In this document: positions 51,822 through 62,680 of the stretch, piece after piece
How positions within the stretch are numbered: the stretch's first letter is position 1
How the letters are laid out: each line of letters begins with the position of its first letter
Assembly (NCBI RefSeq): GCF_030915465.1
Contig: NZ_CP133267.1
Location: 1,835,001-1,899,000 of the forward strand
Direction: 5' to 3'
From: Neobacillus sp. PS3-34
GTDB taxonomy: Bacteria; Bacillota; Bacilli; Bacillales; Cytobacillaceae
DNA: 64,000 nt
Position numbers and translations under genes: made by a program
The notes under the pieces: generated by a model
What the model saw: only the letters and a program-made list of their open reading frames with translations
Databases searched by the model: none
Told to the model about the DNA's origin: nothing

Positions 51822-53344
51822 ATGACACCCCCAAAAAGTAAACAAGGATTTATTGTAGCGGGATTATTGCTTTCGATCCTGATGGCATCGATGGACAATA
51901 CTATTGTCGCTACTGCGATGGGAACAATTGTTGGTGACCTTGGCGGACTGGACAAATTCATCTGGGTTACCTCTGCATATATGGTCGCCGAGATGGCGGG
52001 CATGCCCATTTTCGGAAAACTATCCGATATGTTTGGCCGAAAAAGATTTTTTATGTTCGGAATCATATTATTTATGTTTGGGTCGATCCTTTGCGGCACT
52101 GCCCAAAGTATCGAACAGCTAAGTATTTATAGGGCCATTCAGGGAATTGGTGGAGGCGCACTTGTTCCGATAACCTTTACTATTATTTTTGATATTTTCC
52201 CTCCGGAAAAACGCGGAAAGATGACGGGTTTGTTCGGAGCTGTCTTCGGGCTATCCAGTATATTCGGCCCTTTGCTTGGAGCGTACATAACCGACTATAT
52301 TAATTGGAACTGGATATTTTATATCAACCTTCCTTTAGGAATCACTTCACTTGTATTGATATCGCTTTATTATAAAGAATCACTTGAACATCAAAAACAG
52401 AAAATCGATTGGCTTGGTGCTTTTACACTGGTAGGAGCTGTAGTTTGCTTGATATTTGCACTTGAACTAGGGGGCAATAAATACGCGTGGGATTCTGCAA
52501 ATATTCTTAGTTTATTTACGGGTTTTGCCGTTTTGTTTATTGTTTTTCTCTTTGCCGAAAGAAGGGCGGCAGATCCGATTATTTCGTTCTCCATGTTTAG
52601 GGATCGGTTATTCGCAGCCAGCACGATTGTTGGACTGCTCTATGGAGTAGCTTTTATCGTCGGTTCTGTCTATATCCCTATCTTTATCCAGGGAGTGACT
52701 GGTGGAACGGCAACCAACTCTGGCCTTATATTGCTTCCAATGATGTTAGGTGTTGTCGTTTCAGCTCAGACTGGGGCTATTACTGCGGCAAAATTCGGTT
52801 ATAAAAATGTTATGCTGATTTTTGCCTTCATTTTTGTTACAGGAATGTACTTGTTAAGCACAGTCACCGCAGAAACCACACGAACCGTCATTACTATTTA
52901 TATGATTATCGTAAGCCTTGGTACGGGTGCTTCTTTCTCAGTACTAAATATGGCAGCCATTCACCATATCCTGCGGAAAAACGCGGATCAGCCAATTCCA
53001 CCATTTCGTTTGTCCGTCAGCTCGGCATGACAGTCGGTATAACGGTTTACGGTATCATTCAGCGCAATACATTTGCTGATAGCCTGAAAGAAACCTTTGG
53101 AGGGGCAGGAAAAATGTTTAACGGTGGCGCCCAAAGCGATCCGCGTGCCATCCTGTCCGAACAAGCCCGGGCCATATCCCGAAGCCTGTTCTTGAAAAAA
53201 TTATTGATTCTCTCGCCGATTCAATTGGCTATACATTCTCATGGGCTCTTATCCCAGCAGTTTTAGTAGTTATTTTTGTCTTCCTTCTTACGAACGAGAG
53301 GCTGCAAAGTGAACATAATAGGAAAGATGTCCAGGCTGAATAAT
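51822..53344 (+). pseudogene. MFS multidrug efflux transporter (DHA2/EmrB-QacA type), two frameshifts
   Basis: Repaired it is about 507 residues with 14 predicted helices. The family motifs are clear: SILMASMDNTIVATAMGTI in helix 1, GKLSDMFGRKRFFMFG (motif A), RAIQGIGGGALVPI (motif B) and GAVFGLSSIFGPLLGAYIT (motif C). It is close in type to Bacillus Mdr/YusP. Breaks are near 52970 (one base missing, restoring PAEKRGSANSTISFVRQLG) and near 53172 (one C missing in GGGCCAT, restoring the last helix and the end at 53344). Drug:H+ antiport is family knowledge; the substrate is unknown. Confidence 0.88.
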
Positions 53345-53577: not shown

Positions 53578-54493
53578 ATGGGTTTGATTCACATCAAGAA
53601 AAAGGACTTTGATAAAAAGGTCCATTGGCATCTTCAAAAGAAAAAGAAAAGAAGAGACCATCATTGTCATGATGAAAGCAGCAGCAGTAGCAGCCATCAT
53701 CATCATGATGAAAGTAGCAGTAGCAGCCATCATCACCATGATGAAAGTAGCAGTAGCAGCCATCATCACCATGATGAAAGTAGCAGTAGCAGCCACCATT
53801 GGCATGATGAAAGTAGCAGCAGTAGCCATCATCACCATGATGAAAGCAGTAGCAGTAGCAGTAGCAGTAGCCATCATTGTCATGATGAAAGCAGTAGCAG
53901 TAGCCATCATTGTCATGATGAAAGCAGCAGCAGTAGTAGTAGTAGCAGTAGCCACCATTGGCATCCTCCTGGACATCAAGAACATTGTATAGAAGATGTT
54001 CTAAAAGCGATATTACATGCACAAAAGAAAGGCCAAAAGGCTGAAAAGAAAGGCCAAAAAGAAAAAAGAGTGCAATACTTCCTGCAATGAATCCATTCAT
54101 CAATTATTAGGTGAGTCGAAGAAGTCGAAGAAGCCTAAGAAAAACACAATTCCTTTCATTCTTTATTGTGGTGATTGTGAACCTTTTAAAGCAACTGGAG
54201 TAACTACCTTTTCATGTCATTCAAAAAAGGAAAAGTTCGCTTGCATCACTTCATTCATATTCAGAATTAAGGATATTGATAATAATTGTGCTGTTCTTGA
54301 GCTTTTGAAAATTAAATCTGAAAAGGATCACTCTTCAGATACTGATAAAAATTGCAAATCCAAAGATGTTTGTTCTCCATGCTGTCAAATCAACAGTAAA
54401 GATGTAGACGATTTAGAAAAAACGGGGATTTGTATTACTGTTGATCTTACTTGCTTCTGTGCTATAACCTGCTTGCCTGCAGTTCGTTTATAA
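53578..54493 (+). pseudogene. His/Ser-repeat spore protein with CotY/CotZ-type C-terminal domain, frameshifted
   Basis: Repaired length about 304 residues. A Lys-rich start is followed by about nine units of HHHHDESSSSS or HHCHDE/HHWHDE variants (residues ~28-130), then a helix CIEDVLKAILHAQ and, in the second frame, a Cys-rich domain (CNTSCNESIHQLLGE, NTIPFILYCGDCEPFKATGV, EKTGICITVDLTCFCAITCL) that matches CotY/CotZ/ExsY, which self-assemble by disulfides into the crust or exosporium. The break is in A6 at 54062-54067; one A fewer restores the frame. The His clusters should bind Ni, Zn or Cu (inference). A fused His-rich head on a CotZ core is unusual. Confidence 0.85.
53660..53957 (+). repeat. 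33-bp-type coding repeat for HHxHDESSSSS units
   Basis: CATCATCACCATGATGAAAG followed by AGCAGT triplets recurs about nine times; the Ser run varies from five to ten codons. All six frames stay open or low-complexity, so antisense ORFs are spurious. Confidence 0.85.
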
Positions 54494-54499
54494 TATCTG

Positions 54500-54530
54500 A
54501 TGCCCAGTTATATATTAACTGGGCTTTTTA
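54500..54530 (+). terminator. Terminator of the CotZ-like gene
   Basis: GCCCAGTTA/TAACTGGGC stem, followed by TTTTTA. Confidence 0.8.
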
Positions 54531-54565
54531 TCTATAAGGATAAACAATTCTTGTCCTCACCCTTT

Positions 54566-54934
54566 CTATCCTCCAAAAGCATCTAGAACTTCCTCTAAAT
54601 CTTTTAAATCCAATTCTGCAGATCCTTTTTGTGGATTTGATCGGGGCAAAAATGGAGAATTGTTTTTTATAAAGGTGCCAGTTTGAATCATGTTTTTTAT
54701 TTCAGATAACTCAAATAGTATTTCTTCATTAACACCATTAAACGATCTTGGATGCAGATAATTATTTAGAGCAGATAAAACAAGATGGATAAGAGTATTG
54801 TTGTTAGCATGGTATTCAATTTGGTCCTGTATCTTGGATGAAACAAGATGGGAGTCTCCTGTTTTGACATCAATGAACGTATCGGGAAGAGTAATGGCGG
54901 TTTTATTAAGGTAATCAGTAAAAGTTCTGGACAT
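54566..54934 (-). CDS. Small partner protein of the ParM/Alp-like actin
   Basis: 122 residues from ATG 54934 (AAGG 8 bases ahead; the GTG at 54943 overlaps the site). No family recognised: an N-terminal part (MSRTFTDYLNKTAITLPDTF), a helical middle and an acidic C-terminus (ELDLKDLEEVLDAFGG). It starts 12 bases after the actin gene stop and its ribosome-binding site overlaps that stop, so they form a two-gene operon. This is the position held by DNA-binding adaptors (ParR, Alp7R, AlfB) in plasmid segregation operons, hence the suggested role; this rests on context only. Confidence 0.6.
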   Translation of the reverse strand: MSRTFTDYLNKTAITLPDTFIDVKTGDSHLVSSKIQDQIEYHANNNTLIHLVLSALNNYLHPRSFNGVNEEILFELSEIKNMIQTGTFIKNNSPFLPRSNPQKGSAELDLKDLEEVLDAFGG

Positions 54935-54946
54935 ATCTGTCACCTT

Positions 54947-56137
54947 CTAGCCTTTAATACTAGCAAATTCAATTGCACTTTCTTGGTCTTTCTTAATTTG
55001 ATTCATTTTCGCAAGAATCATAAGTCCCCGAACATTGAGTTTTTCCATATCTTCCGGGAAAAGCAATTCAATTCGCAGCCCTCTCTCAGTCCATCGGACA
55101 GCAGATTCCTGAATTTGCTTTTTCGCTAATTTTGCGGCACCCCCGACGGCAATATATTTTGTTGCCCCTTTAATTTCATTAGAGTTGCTTCTAACACGAT
55201 CGAAGTGTTCAAGGTATTTAACTGCCATTGATTTTAACTGAGGAATAATATATTTACTAATATCTTTTTTCACTCCTGCAAATGGTTCTACATACCACTC
55301 CGATTGTCCAGAAATTAATTTTTCCTCCAGCTCTGAACGTGAATCAAATTTATATAACTCGTTTTTACTGACCTTTTGAATGATATTGTCTAAGAATTGA
55401 TTGATTCCGAACGGTTTCCCTTCAACAGAAGCAACAGGTTTGTTATTCTTGATGCCTACGAAATCTACCGAGTCTCCCCCAAGATCACCAATAATAATTC
55501 CTTTTCGAGAATCCCTTACTAGGGTATCATCTTGAATCCCTAAAGTTTCTTGATCACGTGTCAGACTCAGGTATGCACAAGCCCCTTCTGCACCGACAAT
55601 CACATCTTTAACATGAAGTTTGACTACTAATTCTTTTGGTTCGGGAACTCCTGGCACTTTTTGAAAAATTACGGTATGTGTACCTAGTAATCTTTGTTTA
55701 AATTTATCCTTTTTTTCTTTGTATTGGGTGGTTGGCAATGAAACTGCTAATTGATCGATATTATAATGTATTTCCGTATCCTCAGGATTTAAGACAGCAG
55801 CATGATAGGCTGCCAGTCCAAAAAGGAGTACATAAGTACGATCCTCATCGACTTTCTGATTATTAAAGCCTGTTAAACTAACATCTCTCTGTTTCGCCGC
55901 AGCTTTCCCTATATAGTATATTTCTCTTTTATCAAAAATGGCCTGGCTCTTGATTTCAACAATAAGGTTTTCTTCGAACAATACATCCTCATCATCATAT
56001 GGCTTTTCAAAAAACTCATCATCAAAAAGCGAAATGGCATTTGGAATTTGATATTCACTTACGATCCCTTTGTCAGACGCCAATGCCTTATACCAGCTGT
56101 TTCCTATATCTACAGCAAAATAATTATATTTATCCAT
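54947..56137 (-). CDS. ParM/StbA-like actin-family protein
   Basis: 396 residues from ATG 56137, which has AGGAGGTAG 8 bases ahead. Actin-fold nucleotide motifs are present: phosphate 1 YFAVDIGNSWYKALAS, phosphate 2 IIGDLGGDSVDFVGIK, adenosine motif YIAVGGAAKLAKK. It resembles ParM and Alp proteins of Gram-positive plasmids, which polymerise to push DNA apart. Here it stands with one small partner gene among spore-surface genes and with no replication or relaxase gene near, so its cargo is unknown: a relic of a plasmid partition system, or a filament with a different job. Confidence 0.85.
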   Translation of the reverse strand: MDKYNYFAVDIGNSWYKALASDKGIVSEYQIPNAISLFDDEFFEKPYDDEDVLFEENLIVEIKSQAIFDKREIYYIGKAAAKQRDVSLTGFNNQKVDEDRTYVLLFGLAAYHAAVLNPEDTEIHYNIDQLAVSLPTTQYKEKKDKFKQRLLGTHTVIFQKVPGVPEPKELVVKLHVKDVIVGAEGACAYLSLTRDQETLGIQDDTLVRDSRKGIIIGDLGGDSVDFVGIKNNKPVASVEGKPFGINQFLDNIIQKVSKNELYKFDSRSELEEKLISGQSEWYVEPFAGVKKDISKYIIPQLKSMAVKYLEHFDRVRSNSNEIKGATKYIAVGGAAKLAKKQIQESAVRWTERGLRIELLFPEDMEKLNVRGLMILAKMNQIKKDQESAIEFASIKG

Positions 56138-56323
56138 CGTATCTACCTCCTTTTGAATCTTATGCAAACTAGGCGTTTCGTTGTGCATGTACCTTTTTTT
56201 TTATAAACACAAAAACTTTATATTATATAGTAAATTCCACGTTTATACTGATTCATTTAACCATGCTTACTAGGAAAGCTTGCATACCATAAATTGAACC
56301 ATAAATTAAAAGGAGGAAAATAT

Positions 56324-57100
56324 ATGAATAAAGATCAACAACAAAATTGTATCGATTTTAATCAATCTGCAGGATTAGAGACTTGCACTAGTACACCAGT
56401 TACTCCTGTCACCACACCAGCCGGTACAAGGATTTTAAGAGTTCCTGTTACACTTGCAGAAAGAACTGTAACTTCTACTCTTTCAACTAACATTCATTTT
56501 CCAGACCCTGTTCTGGAAATCAAGGATATTAAAAAGAGGGTGAAAATTGTACAATGCAGCCTAATTTTGGATCCTGTTAATCCAGGCCAAAGCCCTTTTG
56601 ACGGTGCTCCTGGTACGTTAGTTTTAAGAGGATTTGTCAGAAAAAACATCCAATACGCTACACCTATTTGCGATGCTTCAGGTACATGTGTGTCTTCAAA
56701 CCTAAAATCTCTTACAGTTGATGTTCCATTTGAATGTATGACTGTTATCCCACAAGGAGAATTTCTCACACCGCCAGAACGTCCACAATTAAATTCACGT
56801 GCGGAATTTGACTTCTTCAGATCACAGAATTTAGGAATGGGCTTTCCTGAAAAGGACCATCTCCTTTCTAGCGACCTATCACAATTCCATCAACGAAACA
56901 TTGCATTTTATAATCAATTTCCATTCTGTGAGATTCTCTCACACAATATTCTTGAATGGGATGAAGCATTAGACCGTCAGCCTCTTCCTGGCAACGCACC
57001 TTTTGAAGAAGGAACATTTACGCGTATCGTAGAAAAAATGGTATTACGATTTACAATCAAAGTATTGCAAAATCAGCAAGTTAGAGTTACAGCAATTTAA
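56324..57100 (+). CDS. SPOCS/CsxC-like spore-surface protein, paralogue 1
   Basis: 258 residues from ATG 56324 (AAAGGAGG 7 bases ahead). A Cys/Thr-rich N-terminus is followed by a beta-rich domain with the family core FPDPVLEIKDIKKRVKIVQC, LRGFVRKNIQYATP, LTVDVPFECMTVI and a C-terminal MVLRFTIKVLQNQQVRV. This matches the SPOCS (DUF3794-like) arrangement seen in clostridial CsxC and related Bacillus spore proteins, from memory. Three paralogues lie within 4 kb. Probably displayed on the spore surface; ligand unknown. Confidence 0.75.
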   Translation: MNKDQQQNCIDFNQSAGLETCTSTPVTPVTTPAGTRILRVPVTLAERTVTSTLSTNIHFPDPVLEIKDIKKRVKIVQCSLILDPVNPGQSPFDGAPGTLVLRGFVRKNIQYATPICDASGTCVSSNLKSLTVDVPFECMTVIPQGEFLTPPERPQLNSRAEFDFFRSQNLGMGFPEKDHLLSSDLSQFHQRNIAFYNQFPFCEILSHNILEWDEALDRQPLPGNAPFEEGTFTRIVEKMVLRFTIKVLQNQQVRVTAI

Positions 57101-57151
57101 CTACCATTGTAATTTAGTAAAGGAATTTCTTTACAATAACTAATTAGATAA

Positions 57152-57213
57152 CAATCTCGTCATTATCATCGATCTCTGTTATAAGAGATGGTAATGACGA
57201 GATTTTTTTTGCA
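57152..57213. terminator. Long hairpin terminator
   Basis: AATCTCGTCATTA/TAATGACGAGATT stem extended by ATC and GATCTC/GAGATC-like pairs, with TTTTTTTT after it. Confidence 0.85.
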
Positions 57214-57433
57214 AAGTGAAAGTTCTCATACCAAAATATATTCATTTGGATTAAAAACGGCACTGAAATTAGCCAATACCGATTTCTTTTAAAAAAAACA
57301 GCAAGTCTTCTCAAGCAGAAAGGTTTTGTGTGAATTTTATATTTCCCATGAATGTCCATGGGCGTTTACCCATACATAGTCATTTGTCATGCATAGGATA
57401 CACCATTCTGAGTCATCTAGGAGGAGAAAAAAT

Positions 57434-58204
57434 ATGTCTGACAAAAAACATAAAAAACACACTCATAAGTGTGATGATCATTGCGAATGCGAATCAACCC
57501 ATAACGAACATCCACATATTTCCATTGGAAAAATTGTTACAAAGGTCCCTGTCGTTTTAGCTGAACTGACCTTGCAAGTAAATGTAGATACTACTATTAC
57601 TTTTCCTGAGGCAGTATTAGAAATTAAAGATATTAAAAAGAGATTAAAAATTACTCAGTGTCGTCTGCTGCTGCCAACAAATAAATTGTTTGTAAAAGGA
57701 TTTGTACGAAAAAACATCCAATATGCAAGCCCATGTAAGGATATATCAGAAAGCACTTCCACATCCGTAGCCTCAGATTTGCACTCATTAACTGTGGATA
57801 TTCCATTCCAGTGTGTAACTGAAATTAAAAAGTTTCTTTCTAAACCAGTCATGCCCGAAATGAACAATCGCCAGGAGTTTGATTTCTTCGTTTCAAAACC
57901 ATTACCTTCTGGATTTCCTGAAAAAGATGAGCTGTTAACAAGCGATCTTTCTCAATTCCATCAGGCAAGCAAACAATTTTATAATGAACTTCCTTTCTGT
58001 GAATTGATTTCAAGCAAAATTATTGAATGGGATGAAGCGATAGACAGACAGCCTTTGCCTACTTCTTCTCCTTTAGATGAAGGGTTTTTTACTACAATAG
58101 AAGAAAAAATGGTGGTAGATTTCACTTTGAAGGTTCTTCAAAATCAACAAGTACGCATTTCTTCCACAACCAATGACCATGATTGGGACTCTGACTGTAA
58201 TTGA
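57434..58204 (+). CDS. SPOCS/CsxC-like spore-surface protein with His/Cys head, paralogue 2
   Basis: 256 residues from ATG 57434 (AGGAGGAG upstream). The N-terminus is a short metal-ligand cluster: HKKHTHKCDDHCECESTHNE and HPH. The rest closely follows paralogue 1: FPEAVLEIKDIKKRLKITQC, VKGFVRKNIQYASP, LTVDIPFQCVTEI, SDLSQFHQ, EWDEAIDRQPLP, VDFTLKVLQNQQVRI. Shared internal blocks show a tandem duplication. Acidic tail with DHDWDSDCN. Confidence 0.75.
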   Translation: MSDKKHKKHTHKCDDHCECESTHNEHPHISIGKIVTKVPVVLAELTLQVNVDTTITFPEAVLEIKDIKKRLKITQCRLLLPTNKLFVKGFVRKNIQYASPCKDISESTSTSVASDLHSLTVDIPFQCVTEIKKFLSKPVMPEMNNRQEFDFFVSKPLPSGFPEKDELLTSDLSQFHQASKQFYNELPFCELISSKIIEWDEAIDRQPLPTSSPLDEGFFTTIEEKMVVDFTLKVLQNQQVRISSTTNDHDWDSDCN

Positions 58205-58353
58205 TTGATTTTATGAAACAATGAAAATAGATTCGGGGATATACTCCATTTCGGGTATAATCCCCTTCCTAATGATTAGGAAATTTTAATTGAAGAAAGT
58301 TACAAGGAGGGGACAGGAACGGATGCTTATATAAGCGGTCCTTCCTTTACGAA

Positions 58354-60255
58354 ATGAATAATGAGAGGAATGTTTTTCATGAAATGAATAATTTTCAAAG
58401 CAGAATGCCTGACACATACGGCCAGGCACAGCAATATGCACTTCCACGAAGTCATACTATAACGAATCGAAGTAATAGCAATGGCAAAAATAATAATAAT
58501 TTTACAAATGGACCATCTATACAAAATGAGAGCCAGGAAGTAAATATTAACCAATACAAGCCTAAGGACTCTAAACCTTTAATTTTTACTCCTCCAAAGG
58601 TTCGTGATCAACAAATAATGTATAAGCAAATTGATTATGAGGAATCAGAGGATTACCTATTAGATGAAAGTGAAGATGAAATAAATTCAAGTGAATTGGA
58701 AACCCAGTTCCTCATGCAATTATCAGAACAAAAAGGTAACCTGAGAAAAGAAAAGGAGGAATTGAAGCCCTCTTCCGAGGAAGACAAAAAAGAAAAGGTT
58801 TCATTTTCAGATGGAATACACAAGGAAGAATACAAGGATCACCGTCATTTGAAAACAATCCAAGATGAGTCCTCTTCTTCCAGCAAGAACGATTCCACTC
58901 TAAATGAAGACTTAGTAAAGAAATTCACAGCTATGTTAGAGGAATCTTCATCTTACACTGATGAATCATCTTCAAGTGATGATGAGTCCTCTTCCAGTCA
59001 CGATTTGTCTTCTTCTCTTGAGGAGTCCTCTTCTAGTCATGATGAGTCTTCTTCTCCTGAGGAATCCTCTTCTAGTCATGATGAGTCTTCTTCTCCTGAG
59101 GAATCCTCTTCTAGTCATGATGAGAATTCTTCTCTTGAGGAATCCTCTTCCAGTCACGATGAGTCTTCTTCTCCTGAGGAATCCTCTTCTAGTCATGATG
59201 AGTCTTCTTCTCCTGAGGAATCCTCTTCTAGTCATGATGAGTCTTCTTCTCTTGAGGAATCCTCCTCTAGTCACGATGAGTCTTCTTCTCTTGAGGAGTC
59301 CTCTTCCAGTCACGATGAGTCTTCTTCTCTTGAGGAGTCCTCTTCCAGTCATGATGAGTCTTCTTCTCCTGAGGAATCCTCTTCTAGTCATGATGAGTCC
59401 TCTTCTTCTGAGGAATCCTCTTCTAGTCATGATGAGTCCTCTTCTCTTGAGGAATCCTCTTCCAGTCATGATGAGTCTTCTTCTCCTGAGGAATCCTCTT
59501 CTAGTCATGATGAGTCTTCTTCTCTTGAGGAATCCTCTTCTAGTCATGATGAGTCTTCTTCTCTTGAGGAATCCTCTTCTAGTCATGATGAGTCTTCTTC
59601 TCCTGAGGAATCCTCTTCCAGTTTCGATGAGTCTTCTTCTCTTGATGAATCTTTTTCACACCTAGAATCCGAGGAATCCTCATCATCGGCAAGTTATCTA
59701 GACAAAGATAAAGATCATGTTCACCCTTTAATTGTAAGAATTCCTGTTTTACTTTCATTGTTAAAGGTTGACATTGATATTTATGATTCTTTTAATCTAT
59801 TCGTTCCAATATCAAGTGTGATAAAGGTAAACTGGAGCATAAATTCGTTAGATTGCAAGGTCCTACTCCCAACCCCAAATGTGTTCTTAAAAGGTGAGTT
59901 AATTGCAGATATTGAATATGTAAAAGATAATGTGGAAAATACTTTACATTCAATCAAAATTATTGTTCCATACGAAAAGGTGATTGTGGCTGAATGGCTT
60001 CATTCTCCTAACTTACCTAGCACTCACCAGGCTGAGTATATGTTCGTTTCACCTGATCGCCAGGAAATTCAGTATCACCGCGAATTTACTCAACAATTTG
60101 CTGAACCAGTTTACTGTGAACTGCATGGTATACAGACAATCTGGCATGACGAGTTAATATCAAAGGACGGTAAACCTGAACTTGATGTTCAAGGTAAGGG
60201 TACTTTAACTATCAGTCTTTTACAATCCCAGTATGTAGATTTAAACATCAAGTAA
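58354..60255 (+). CDS. Large Ser/Glu/His-repeat protein with SPOCS-like C-terminal domain, paralogue 3
   Basis: 633 residues. Hydrophilic N-terminal 200 residues; then about residues 210-430 made of 13-residue units (EESSSSHDESSSP or ...L); then a SPOCS-like domain (HPLIVRIPVLLSLL, DCKVLLPTPNVFLKGELIAD, LHSIKIIVPYEKVIV, YCELHGIQTIWHDE, TISLLQSQYVDL). Acidic, phosphorylatable and histidine-bearing, it could form a brush on the spore. The start is uncertain: ATG 58354 lacks a near site, while AAGGAGGGG (58304-58312) is followed by ATG 58323, which is out of frame and stops after three codons. Either a hairpin bridges the gap, or one base is wrong near 58330. Confidence 0.75.
   Translation: MNNERNVFHEMNNFQSRMPDTYGQAQQYALPRSHTITNRSNSNGKNNNNFTNGPSIQNESQEVNINQYKPKDSKPLIFTPPKVRDQQIMYKQIDYEESEDYLLDESEDEINSSELETQFLMQLSEQKGNLRKEKEELKPSSEEDKKEKVSFSDGIHKEEYKDHRHLKTIQDESSSSSKNDSTLNEDLVKKFTAMLEESSSYTDESSSSDDESSSSHDLSSSLEESSSSHDESSSPEESSSSHDESSSPEESSSSHDENSSLEESSSSHDESSSPEESSSSHDESSSPEESSSSHDESSSLEESSSSHDESSSLEESSSSHDESSSLEESSSSHDESSSPEESSSSHDESSSSEESSSSHDESSSLEESSSSHDESSSPEESSSSHDESSSLEESSSSHDESSSLEESSSSHDESSSPEESSSSFDESSSLDESFSHLESEESSSSASYLDKDKDHVHPLIVRIPVLLSLLKVDIDIYDSFNLFVPISSVIKVNWSINSLDCKVLLPTPNVFLKGELIADIEYVKDNVENTLHSIKIIVPYEKVIVAEWLHSPNLPSTHQAEYMFVSPDRQEIQYHREFTQQFAEPVYCELHGIQTIWHDELISKDGKPELDVQGKGTLTISLLQSQYVDLNIK
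58981..59640 (+). repeat. 39-bp coding minisatellite, about 17 units
   Basis: Unit close to GATGAGTCTTCTTCTCCTGA followed by GGAATCCTCTTCTAGTCAT; variation is mostly C/T at third positions and Pro/Leu at one codon. Alternative frames across it are open by periodicity and not genes. Confidence 0.9.
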
Positions 60256-60331
60256 ATAAGTTACATTTTGGATGAAAGTAATCAAAAATATAATTAGACT
60301 TATCTTTTACAAGTCTATTCAATGGTATGTA

Positions 60332-60366
60332 AAAAAGGGTGCCCCTTCTACGAGACACCCTTCCTT
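60332..60366. terminator. Terminator between convergent surface genes
   Basis: AAAAAGGGTG/CACCCTT stem with AAAAAA and TTTTC flanks. Confidence 0.65.
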
Positions 60367-60371
60367 TTCTA

Positions 60372-61100
60372 TTAGAAACATGTACCTCTGAGGTTTGCAC
60401 CTGCATTGTCACGACGTTGTTCTTGAGTCAATCTAACTACTAAATCGATTGTTACTTTTTCAGTAAGTTTGTTGAAATTACCAAAATTATCAAAATCATG
60501 CGGGAAGTCCATTTGTAATACTTTAGCTCTTAGCAATTTACATTTAACAGGTTGGTTAAAGACCTCGAATGTTTCAGATCCGAAACTGCAGCGATCTGAG
60601 CCCATTCCATCCGCTGCCATTTCCCTGATCTCACTAATTTGATTATTCTTTTGGCTAAAGCAGAAATCAATATCAGGTAAGTTAGAAATGGTTTGAAAAC
60701 ATTTAAAAGGAACATTTACACTAAAATCTCTTATAAACCCATTACAACTATCTGAAAATTGAATATTTTTATGCACAAATCCTTCAATGAACAAATTTAC
60801 AGCATTTGCTATACCGGCACCGGGATGATTCGGGTTTTCTATCGGGATTGCCTTACACTGTGTTAATTGCACATTTTTCCTGATTTGCTTAATCTCGCGA
60901 GCAGAATGTGGTAGCTTAATATCTGCTTCGACGTTTGTTGTGATAGGAATATCAGCGATAATAACGTTCCGTTCAAAATCTTGAAGATTAATTGGTGTTC
61001 CTACCATACAGAAATGGTCCTGAGTTTTTGCTGTATCGCAAGTAGGCAATGGCGGGCACTTATCATGTGAGTTACAGCCACAACCAGTATTTTTATTCAT
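60372..61100 (-). CDS. SPOCS/CsxC-like spore-surface protein, Cys-rich, paralogue 4
   Basis: 242 residues from ATG 61100 (GGAG 8 bases ahead; the upstream GTG overlaps the site). Cys-rich N-terminus (MNKNTGCGCNSHDKCPPLPT) and the family core LPHSAREIKQIRKNVQLTQC, LFIEGFVHKNIQFSD, FSVNVPFKCFQTI, VKCKLLRAKVLQMDF and VTIDLVVRLTQEQRR. It is the only member on the minus strand and the most divergent, so it probably predates the tandem pair. Confidence 0.75.
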   Translation of the reverse strand: MNKNTGCGCNSHDKCPPLPTCDTAKTQDHFCMVGTPINLQDFERNVIIADIPITTNVEADIKLPHSAREIKQIRKNVQLTQCKAIPIENPNHPGAGIANAVNLFIEGFVHKNIQFSDSCNGFIRDFSVNVPFKCFQTISNLPDIDFCFSQKNNQISEIREMAADGMGSDRCSFGSETFEVFNQPVKCKLLRAKVLQMDFPHDFDNFGNFNKLTEKVTIDLVVRLTQEQRRDNAGANLRGTCF

Positions 61101-61293
61101 ACAATTCACTCCTTTTTGATTTTATCAAAAGACATTAAAAGAAATATTCCATATCAGTTTATTTCTCTTTTTCTTTTGACTTACTATTTTATATGCTTAA
61201 GTGCTAGTATTCGTATGGACAGCTGCCGATAGACTTTCACATATTTTTTACAACTTGTACGTTTTTTCATTTCATTTGATTAATTCCATTAAA

Positions 61294-61355: not shown

Positions 61356-62680
61356 TTATACTTCCATCGTTTCATTTATATGGTTCACAATCCGAACGGC
61401 TTTTCCTTCTGATCTCGGAATCGATTTTGGCTGAAGGATGTTAACATCCACCGAAATTAAACAATGGTTTTTTATTAGGTGGTGAATATGCTTTTTAAGT
61501 TCATTTATTTTTCCATGATTCATATCGCCGTGTATTTGATTAAAGAGTTCATCCGTCACTTCTACTTGCAGCTCTATATGCTGTAAACTCCCCCTTTTAA
61601 ATAAGTGAATCTGATAATGCGGTTCGATATCTTTTTCCAAAAGTAAAAAATGCTCGATTTCGGATGGAAATACATTGACTCCCCGAACAATCAGCATATC
61701 ATCTATTCGCCCTTTTACACGTGACATTCTAACTGTTGTTCGCCCGCATTTACACTTCTCTCTGTTAATAGAAGCAATATCTCCTGAACGATAGCGGATA
61801 ATCGGAAATGCTTCTTTGGTCAAACTGGTAAAGACCAGTTCCCCATCTTCCCCATCCGGAACCGGCTCTAACGTATTTGGATCAATTACTTCTACAATAA
61901 AGTGATCCTCGGCAATATGCAGGCCGTCCTGGGCTTCATGGCATTCCATCGAAACTCCAGGTCCCATAACCTCGCTTAAACCATAAATATCACATGCTTT
62001 TATATCCAGCTTTTGCTCTATTGTATTGCGCATTTCCTCTGACCAAGGCTCCGCTCCAAGTATTCCGAATTTCAGTGATGTCTCTTTGGGGTTCTTGCCC
62101 AGTTCCTCCATGCGCTCAGCTAAATTCAATAAATAAGAAGGGGTACAGCATATTACTGTGGGCTTAAAATCTTCAATAATCGTAATTTGCCGATCTGTAT
62201 TCCCCCTGAGACTGGTACCGTTACCATTCCGAGCTCTTCACTTCCATAATGGAGCCCGAGCCCGCCTGTAAATAACCCATAACCATATGCATTATGCAGC
62301 ATTTCTCCCGGCTGTCCACCGGAAATGGCAATTGCACGTGCTACAAGCTCGGACCAAATTTTAATATCGCTTTTTGTATACCCTACAACCGTTGCCTTTC
62401 CACTGGTACCTGATGAAGCATGAATGCGAATTAATTCGCTTTGGTTAACGGCAAATAAACCGAATGGATAGTGGTCTCTTAAATCTTTTTTTACCGTAAA
62501 AGGGAGTCTGGCAATGTCCCTGACGGATTGGATATCTTCGGGTTTTACATCCAGCTCATTAAACTTATTTTTATAAAATGGGACCTTATCATAAACTCTC
62601 TTAACGGTTTCTTGAAGTCGTTTCAATTGAAGTTGTTCCATCACCGCTTTGGAAGCGGTTTCAATTTCATGCATGATCAT
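61356..62680 (-). pseudogene. paaK: Phenylacetate--CoA ligase, frameshifted
   Basis: Repaired length about 441 residues, normal for PaaK. AMP-binding motif SSGTSGKATVVGYTKSDI and DLRDHYPFG lie in the first frame; GLSEVMGPGVSMEC, YRSGDIA and RGVNVFPSEIEHFL in the second. The frame breaks at the run of five G's (62202-62206): one more base restores GGNTDRQITIIEDFKPTVIC. Start ATG 62680 with AGGGGG 9 bases ahead. No other phenylacetate catabolism genes in the window, so it may serve another aryl acid. Confidence 0.88.

Follow-up and report, generated by a model that had tools for sequence, protein, structure and literature searches.

In the parts of PMC4942563 considered here, CsxC is described as a protein of the exosporium of Clostridium sporogenes, and for Bacillus thuringiensis the sections used of PMC4750369 give several exosporium genes as SigK-dependent, with some of them under the control of GerE. 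For chromosomal ParM-like actins, the corresponding part of PMC12270681 does no more than suggest roles other than plasmid segregation. In this study, a window of 64,000 nucleotides from Neobacillus sp. PS3-34 (contig NZ_CP133267.1, positions 1,835,001 to 1,899,000; the whole stretch of DNA that was analysed) was found to contain, in the region 53578-61109, a cluster of seven genes encoding a CotZ-type protein, an actin-like protein with the product of a small downstream gene (the partner), and four CsxC-type proteins, for which the names csx1 to csx4 were introduced in this analysis. The seven genes in approximately 7.5 kb and the actin with a partner (54947-56137 and 54566-54934) that an earlier note on this DNA had listed were both borne out. 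That note gave no role to the actin pair, which is the most conserved and the most unexpected part of the island.

The actin is linked to the CsxC and CotZ genes by gene order and by co-occurrence, it has SigK-type promoter sequences and intact nucleotide motifs, and its partner is unlike in sequence to those of three plasmid relatives. The association of the actin with the layer genes is well shown, and the mechanism, in which the actin would polymerise and be bound by the partner, with a given cargo at a given time and place, is one that we infer, because function is drawn here from co-occurrence. Judged from sequence, there is about an even chance that the island is a late mother-cell cluster whose outer layer would be made from CsxC and CotZ, with the actin and its partner as a filament system recruited from plasmid partition that would aid assembly. 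The genes are given below; the starts of the actin and of csx2 (256 aa) were placed inside the longest open reading frames (ORFs) by their ribosome-binding sites.

53578..54090, plus strand: His/Ser-repeat head of the CotZ-type protein (ORF; tandem repeat of period 33 by TRF, over 53578-54087)
54017..54493, plus strand: CotZ core, in another frame than the head (PF10612, 157.2 bits against a cut-off of 24)
54566..54934, minus strand: actin partner, 122 aa from an ATG with a ribosome-binding site (unnamed family, by alignment)
54947..56137, minus strand: actin-like protein of Alp7A type, 396 aa (Pfam)
56324..57100, plus strand: csx1, CsxC family NF045794 (242 bits against a cut-off of 135)
57434..58204, plus strand: csx2, CsxC family, with a Cys/His head (273 bits against a cut-off of 135; alignment)
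58354..60255, plus strand: csx3, a long Ser/Glu/His repeat head and a diverged CsxC domain (29.7 bits, below the cut-off of 135)
60372..61100, minus strand: csx4, CsxC family (170 bits against a cut-off of 135)

When species genomes were scanned with the actin only, 64 loci were obtained at 70-92% identity, the window's own genome being possibly excluded from the scan. By their record titles, the loci belong to Bacillus and to 14 other genera (Priestia, Cytobacillus, Solibacillus, Niallia, Metabacillus, Neobacillus, Sporosarcina, Thalassobacillus, Mesobacillus, Lederbergia, Rossellomorea, Halobacillus, Oceanobacillus and Pontibacillus); one metagenome-assembled genome and two loci labelled Pseudomonas and Paenibacillus, apparently mislabelled, stand outside this count. 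The partner was present in 63 of the 64 loci, csx2 in 62, csx3 in 60, csx1 in 56, csx4 in 54 and CotZ in 48, where the csx genes were assigned by best BLAST score to the four of the window and one locus with two csx3 pieces (L031) was scored as lacking csx3. Absence of csx2 was seen only in two loci on short or truncated contigs (L055 and L075). CotZ was convergent with the partner and within 400 bp of it in 44 of its 48 loci and lay beyond csx4 in the other four, and the order csx3-csx2-csx1, divergent from actin-partner, was exact in 48 of the 53 loci that contain csx1-3, actin and partner. On clustering of all ORFs in the 64 loci, any other family was present in at most 12 of them, indicating that the core is conserved and that its surroundings are variable.

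Of 299 genomes drawn class-wide, five had the actin orthologue (E<=1e-40) and exactly the same five had a close csx2 (E<1e-100); both were missing from the other 294, and neither occurred alone. Distant csx genes only were present in 12 more genomes. In 61 nearer relatives, a draw that overlaps with the first and has four positives in common with it, the actin orthologue was found in 12 genomes and a close csx2 in 10 of these and in no other. One of the two exceptions (G001) is a fragmented assembly of 570 contigs in which the contig begins inside the actin. In the other (G031; L137, 8077-12362), a csx1 remnant is adjoined by a transposase pair of IS21 type (IstB_IS21, 226 bits), the actin and partner are open, and csx2, csx3, csx4 and CotZ were not found in 18 kb. 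The earlier note had proposed looking for co-occurrence of these families in other Bacillaceae, and this was found, as clusters in the 64 loci and as presence of the actin orthologue and a close csx2 in the same five of the 299 genomes.

The promoter regions of the actin and csx2 were found to be of one type. A SigK-type pattern, AC-N15-18-CATAnnnT with the CATA 18-60 nt before a start placed by its ribosome-binding site, was present upstream of the actin in all 64 sequences used, those of the window and of 63 relatives (L075, where the contig begins in the gene, was excluded), and upstream of csx2 in 57 of 63 sequences, window included. Among control ORFs taken from these loci, it was present in 32 of 693; some of the controls are perhaps not genes and could lower this rate. 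The consensus of the actin promoter was GTAC..GCACA-N16-GCATAnGATT. For comparison, bclA of B. thuringiensis has CAC-N16-CATATGTTA (PMC4750369, in the part used here), and in B. subtilis a spacing of 15 +/- 1 bp between a 5-nt -35 element and a 10-nt -10 element is given for SigK in the section used of PMC517825. Upstream of csx1, a -10-like GCATAnnnT was found in 50 of 57 sequences, window included, compared to 2.0 in shuffles. Inverted repeats of the GGGC-N3-6-GCC(C/T) type occurred in 35 of 63 csx2 upstreams compared to 0.2 in shuffles, and the repeat of the window is a weaker version that was missed by the pattern. The repeat resembles what we take to be the consensus of the GerE box. A strict SigA promoter pattern was found in 0 of 63 actins, but it was also found in just 2 of 606 controls and so had no power. 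The elements of the window are as follows.

56157..56192, minus strand: SigK-type promoter of the actin (GTAC..GCAC-N18-CATAAGAT, with the CATA 27 nt before the start)
56283..56290, plus strand: conserved -10-like GCATAnnnT element of csx1 (50 of 57 sequences)
57359..57372, plus strand: GerE-like inverted repeat TGGG-N6-CCCA upstream of csx2, a weaker copy of the repeat type
57392..57399, plus strand: SigK-type -10 (CATAGGAT) of csx2 (by the SigK-type pattern)

Together, the CsxC and CotZ families, the SigK-type promoters of the actin and csx2 and the synteny in 64 loci support the earlier description of this region as a spore-surface island.

The actin-like protein exceeded the Pfam cut-offs for ALP_N (49.4 bits, cut-off 26.3) and Alp7A_like_C (29.5 bits, cut-off 22), the sole PDB match of its profile was Alp7A (5ec0, E 1e-10), and it matched a PHROG partition family. 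In 33 aligned sequences, the residues D11, G13, N14, S15 and K18, D219, L220, G221, G222 and D223, and G333, G334 and A335 were invariant; these are presumably the phosphate 1, phosphate 2 and adenosine motifs, respectively. Mean column identity was 81% for the actin (33 rows), 66% for csx2 (31 rows) and 51% for the partner (50 rows). The C-terminal tail of the partner was conserved, with the consensus DxKExEDxLEAFGG in the 50-row alignment; it may bind the filament, a role that a short C-terminal tail has in ParR. No Pfam, PDB or PHROG match over the cut-off was obtained for the partner. It had 188 homologues, and among the matches listed (120 of 188) all were at least 39% identical and without a Pfam domain, those that were named being hypothetical/uncharacterized or 'dehydrogenase', with one metagenome protein bearing an enzyme name.

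That the pair as it stands came from a plasmid or phage was rejected, as the plasmid actins listed (20 of 23 records) had 25-32% identity to the window actin, below 33%, no match to the actin was found in phages, and no match to the partner was found in plasmids. In three plasmid relatives, a small gene called ParR-like by eye lies downstream of the actin, as it does here. The partner had an hhalign probability of 0.6% against the profile of these three plasmid partners, which is a thin profile, and BLASTP against two of them gave no match. By these sequence comparisons, the actin pair of the spore cluster forms a lineage of its own, with a partner that belongs to it. The window genome also contains a second actin (L123, 5037-6828), which is 29% identical; the protein encoded after it, of 171 aa, looks by eye like the plasmid partners.

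These findings are consistent with a model in which a late-sporulation mother-cell cluster would build an outer spore layer, either exosporium or outer coat, from CsxC-family proteins and CotZ, and in which the actin and its partner would be an ATP-driven filament system derived from plasmid-partition (ParM/Alp7A) stock that now acts on the spore surface and not on DNA. The actin would polymerise in the mother cell, the partner would bind the filament via its conserved C-terminal tail, and the N-terminal domain of the partner would link the filament to a layer component or to the outer forespore membrane. The filaments, either growing or anchored, would then place, shape or extend the CsxC/CotZ sheet around the forespore. 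The stronger proposal of a dedicated spore-envelope actin cytoskeleton, in which a chromosomal actin of Alp7A type, switched on in the mother cell by SigK, and a new adaptor would drive or guide assembly of the CsxC/CotZ layer, is made tentatively and with rather less than an even chance of being right. If true, it would extend what bacterial actins do in morphogenesis beyond cell-wall growth, division and the positioning of DNA or organelles, and one group of the ParM-like actins on chromosomes would thereby have a function; the conserved actin-partner pair in a spore-surface cluster is directly testable in culturable bacteria of many genera. No actin-like protein linked to the exosporium was found in the titles or abstract openings listed by the literature searches, the subscription literature being mostly outside their scope.

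Several observations weigh against an actin that serves this layer. The distance from CAC to CATA in the actin promoter is 18 nt compared to 16 nt in bclA, and the SigK pattern was absent upstream of csx3 (0 of 61), csx4 (0 of 55) and the partner (0 of 64) and nearly absent for csx1 (3 of 57) and CotZ (6 of 48). Although csx3 and the partner may be co-transcribed after csx2 and the actin, respectively, the expression of csx4 and CotZ is left unexplained by this pattern. Both the SigK regular expression and the line of E<1e-100 were chosen after the sequences had been seen. The plasmid partners themselves matched no Pfam or PHROG family, leaving their ParR identity unconfirmed by family searches, and therefore the comparison shows that the window partner differs from them, not that it is no ParR. 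Moreover, G031 keeps an open actin and partner without csx2, csx3, csx4 or CotZ beside them. Conversely, one csx locus from each of eight genomes (G003 and 7 of the 12 with distant csx genes) had no actin, partner or CotZ alongside by BLASTP, the csx genes standing there alone or in small groups. Since CsxC genes occur elsewhere without an actin, the actin cannot be needed for all CsxC layers.

The main rivals are a deposited structural filament and chromosomal partition. According to the first, the actin filament, capped or cross-linked by the partner, would be a structural part deposited in the spore and not a transient motor of the mother cell; it would, for example, fill or brace the gap under the outer layer or form fibres. 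The same clustering and the same SigK-type promoters would be seen in this case, and the chromosomal Cb-cParM filaments are stable after hydrolysis according to the part of PMC12270681 used here. On the other hand, the invariant residues of the nucleotide motifs are as would be expected of a dynamic polymer, and the actin, unlike CotZ and the csx proteins, is poor in Cys (median 1), which makes a deposited filament unlikely, if still the strongest competitor of a filament that aids assembly.

The second rival, that the pair is a partition-type (ParMR-like) system of the chromosome that moves DNA, such as the mother-cell or forespore chromosome, and stands in the cluster for historical reasons, is quite improbable. 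Close linkage to the csx genes and the lack of sequence or profile likeness between the partner and the plasmid partners compared both argue against it, although the profile is thin, and so does the divergent intergenic space, which is short (median 202 bp) and is occupied by promoters. SigK, in addition, acts after engulfment. Iterons (parC) in three copies were found upstream of the actin in 2 of 64 loci compared to 2 of 192 shuffles, in a test of low power, given that four plasmid loci had 2-4 copies and the second chromosomal actin had 3, compared to 1-3 in their shuffles. What speaks for partition is the kinship of the actin to Alp7A/ParM, a small downstream gene placed as in three plasmid actin loci, and the occurrence of cParMR on chromosomes, where the Fig. 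4 legend of PMC12270681 gives a sporulation-specific amidase among the conserved neighbours of the Clostridium cParM. Other chromosomal actins may adjoin sporulation genes too.

Regarding the layer proteins, csx1, csx2 and csx4 exceeded the NCBIfam cut-off for CsxC and also matched DUF7852 in Pfam, and csx3 remained below the former. The SipL/SPOCS (PF12673) cut-off of 23.6 was missed, with csx2 scoring 20.2-20.4 bits, and weak matches (E<0.01) in 25 of 31 csx2 sequences point to a possible distant kinship of csx2 to SPOCS. Thus the term 'SPOCS-like', applied earlier to all four proteins, is fair for a distant likeness but not for membership, with PF12673 sub-threshold and three of the four being of the CsxC family. 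The paralogue said to have a long Ser/Glu/His repeat was confirmed in csx3, the head of which has a 39-bp Ser/Glu/His unit in 17 copies (TRF), and the one with a His/Cys head was recovered as csx2. In a different genome, a csx / csx3-like / csx trio was seen with no actin or CotZ alongside (L125, 6792-10751), so that csx3-type proteins also occur without actin. On a contig without actin, a csx gene was adjoined by one for a CsxC-like protein of 220 aa, the start of which looks coiled-coil-like by eye (L131, 2428-3090).

The earlier note had suggested a metal-sequestering outer spore layer, with acidic, Ser-rich, His-bearing heads as the common theme, and metal sequestration by His/Cys/acidic repeat heads was weighed here as the main role of the island. 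The csx3 heads are indeed acidic (Asp+Glu median 23.5% in 60 relatives) and contain 105 [DE][DE]SSS motifs compared to 3.9 in shuffles, confined to 30 of the 60 heads, but His, at 4.8% in the window, is a small and variable component (median 2.2%, range 0-5.9% in the 60 relatives). Some heads do fit a metal-binding role: His/Ser heads occur in the window genome, csx2 heads have at least two Cys and at least three His in 42 of 62 sequences, and the CotZ heads are highly variable and rich in His, Cys and charge (median 17.5% H+C, n=47). The CotZ cores are rich in Cys as well (median 14 Cys). Cys-rich layers are, however, usual for exosporium proteins and may be cross-linked by disulphides, and the recurring acidic, Cys/His and Cys-rich features fit such cross-linking as well as metal binding. 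Metal sequestration would also leave the actin pair unexplained. With His minor and variable in the csx3 heads, which keep their acidic residues, it was rejected as the common theme; metal binding by the repeat heads is possible, yet it is not what is conserved, and a metal-sequestering layer as the main purpose of the island is very improbable.

Least probable of all is a non-functional association of actin and csx genes, neighbours by shared descent alone, since the core is kept while the outer flanks differ among loci, the actin and csx2 have the same promoter type, and none of the 299 genomes has an actin orthologue or a close csx2 (E<1e-100) without the other, with 294 lacking both, even though the loci come from related spore-forming genera in which synteny can persist and the actin outlasts the csx genes in G031.

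The CotZ core is the single PF10612 match found in the whole genome; CotZ is kin to CotY/ExsY. The His/Ser repeat and the core of the CotY/CotZ-type protein announced by the earlier note are both present, but they sit in different reading frames in the window genome, and in the relatives L031 and L075 head and core form one ORF. Within 12 kb (51822-53340, 54017-54090, 62129-62153 and ~63100), frame splits were seen in an MFS efflux gene (three frames), CotZ and PaaK and, by eye, a sugar ABC permease. Because these neighbours are also frame-split, indel errors in the assembly of the window are likely, and a programmed frameshift in CotZ is not favoured.

An unusual leader was found upstream of csx3.

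58304..58346, plus strand: csx3 leader, with the ribosome-binding site AAGGAGG followed by a hairpin at 58315-58346, and the ATG at 58354

In 38 aligned leaders, the ribosome-binding site was 39-46 nt from the csx3 start codon (46 nt being the upper limit of the script), with a hairpin between the two and no nearer ribosome-binding site. A total of 59 leaders had been extracted; the 21 left out were near-duplicates and leaders without this layout, and at least seven left-out loci (L043, L046, L060, L061, L064, L066 and L080) had ordinary spacing. The z-scores of the hairpin were modest, averaging -1.95, and of the 38 leaders 29 were below -1 and 17 below -2. In 21 hand-picked leaders, for which the structure used in the covariation count was supplied by hand, an 11-pair helix had 87.9% paired cells and a covariation score of 0.335; shuffles gave 0.177, and sliding of the helix gave no more than 0.177. 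Helix cells changed on both sides numbered 15 compared to 6.2 in shuffles (as many in 0 of 500 shuffles), but the number of pairs altered on both sides (5) was not above that in the shuffles (4.3). RNAalifold gave no structure for the 38-sequence MAFFT alignment of the leader, and Rfam gave no family above the gathering score. An upstream ORF before csx3 was rejected in preference to the hairpin, its start codon not being kept across loci. With the hairpin folded, the ribosome-binding site is separated from the start codon by approximately 11 unpaired nt; the hairpin may therefore bring the two together, so that a hairpin-bridged translation start is possible for csx3. A similar leader layout reportedly exists for phage T4 gene 25, which a literature search did not confirm.

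Compared to known systems, the window actin is of the same actin fold family, by profile, as the plasmid actin Alp7A (PDB 5ec0; presumably from plasmid pLS20 of B. subtilis) of the ParM/StbA family, and the small downstream partner gene is shared with three Alp7A/ParM plasmid relatives. In contrast to these, the window actin is 70-92% identical across many genera and 25-32% identical to the plasmid relatives listed, it has a SigK-type promoter, and its partner is unlike in sequence to the partners of the three plasmid relatives. The chromosomal cParMR systems (PMC12270681) likewise consist of an actin and a small partner on chromosomes, kept within some genera and of unknown function; in the part of that paper used here, segregation-like or unspecified roles are discussed and no CsxC/CotZ cluster appears. 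With CsxC of the C. sporogenes exosporium (PMC4942563, in part), csx1, csx2 and csx4 share the family NF045794, and the difference lies in four paralogues per cluster, one of which combines a long repeat head with a domain that has diverged. With CotZ (PF10612), the Cys-rich core domain is shared, and here it is joined to a variable His/Cys/charged head with the coding frame split in the window genome. SpoIVA of B. subtilis, as presented in the part used of PMC7952092, is an ATP-driven polymer of sporulation, and a nucleotide-using polymer in sporulation is also what is proposed for the window actin; SpoIVA, however, comes from the P-loop GTPase class and has no actin origin.

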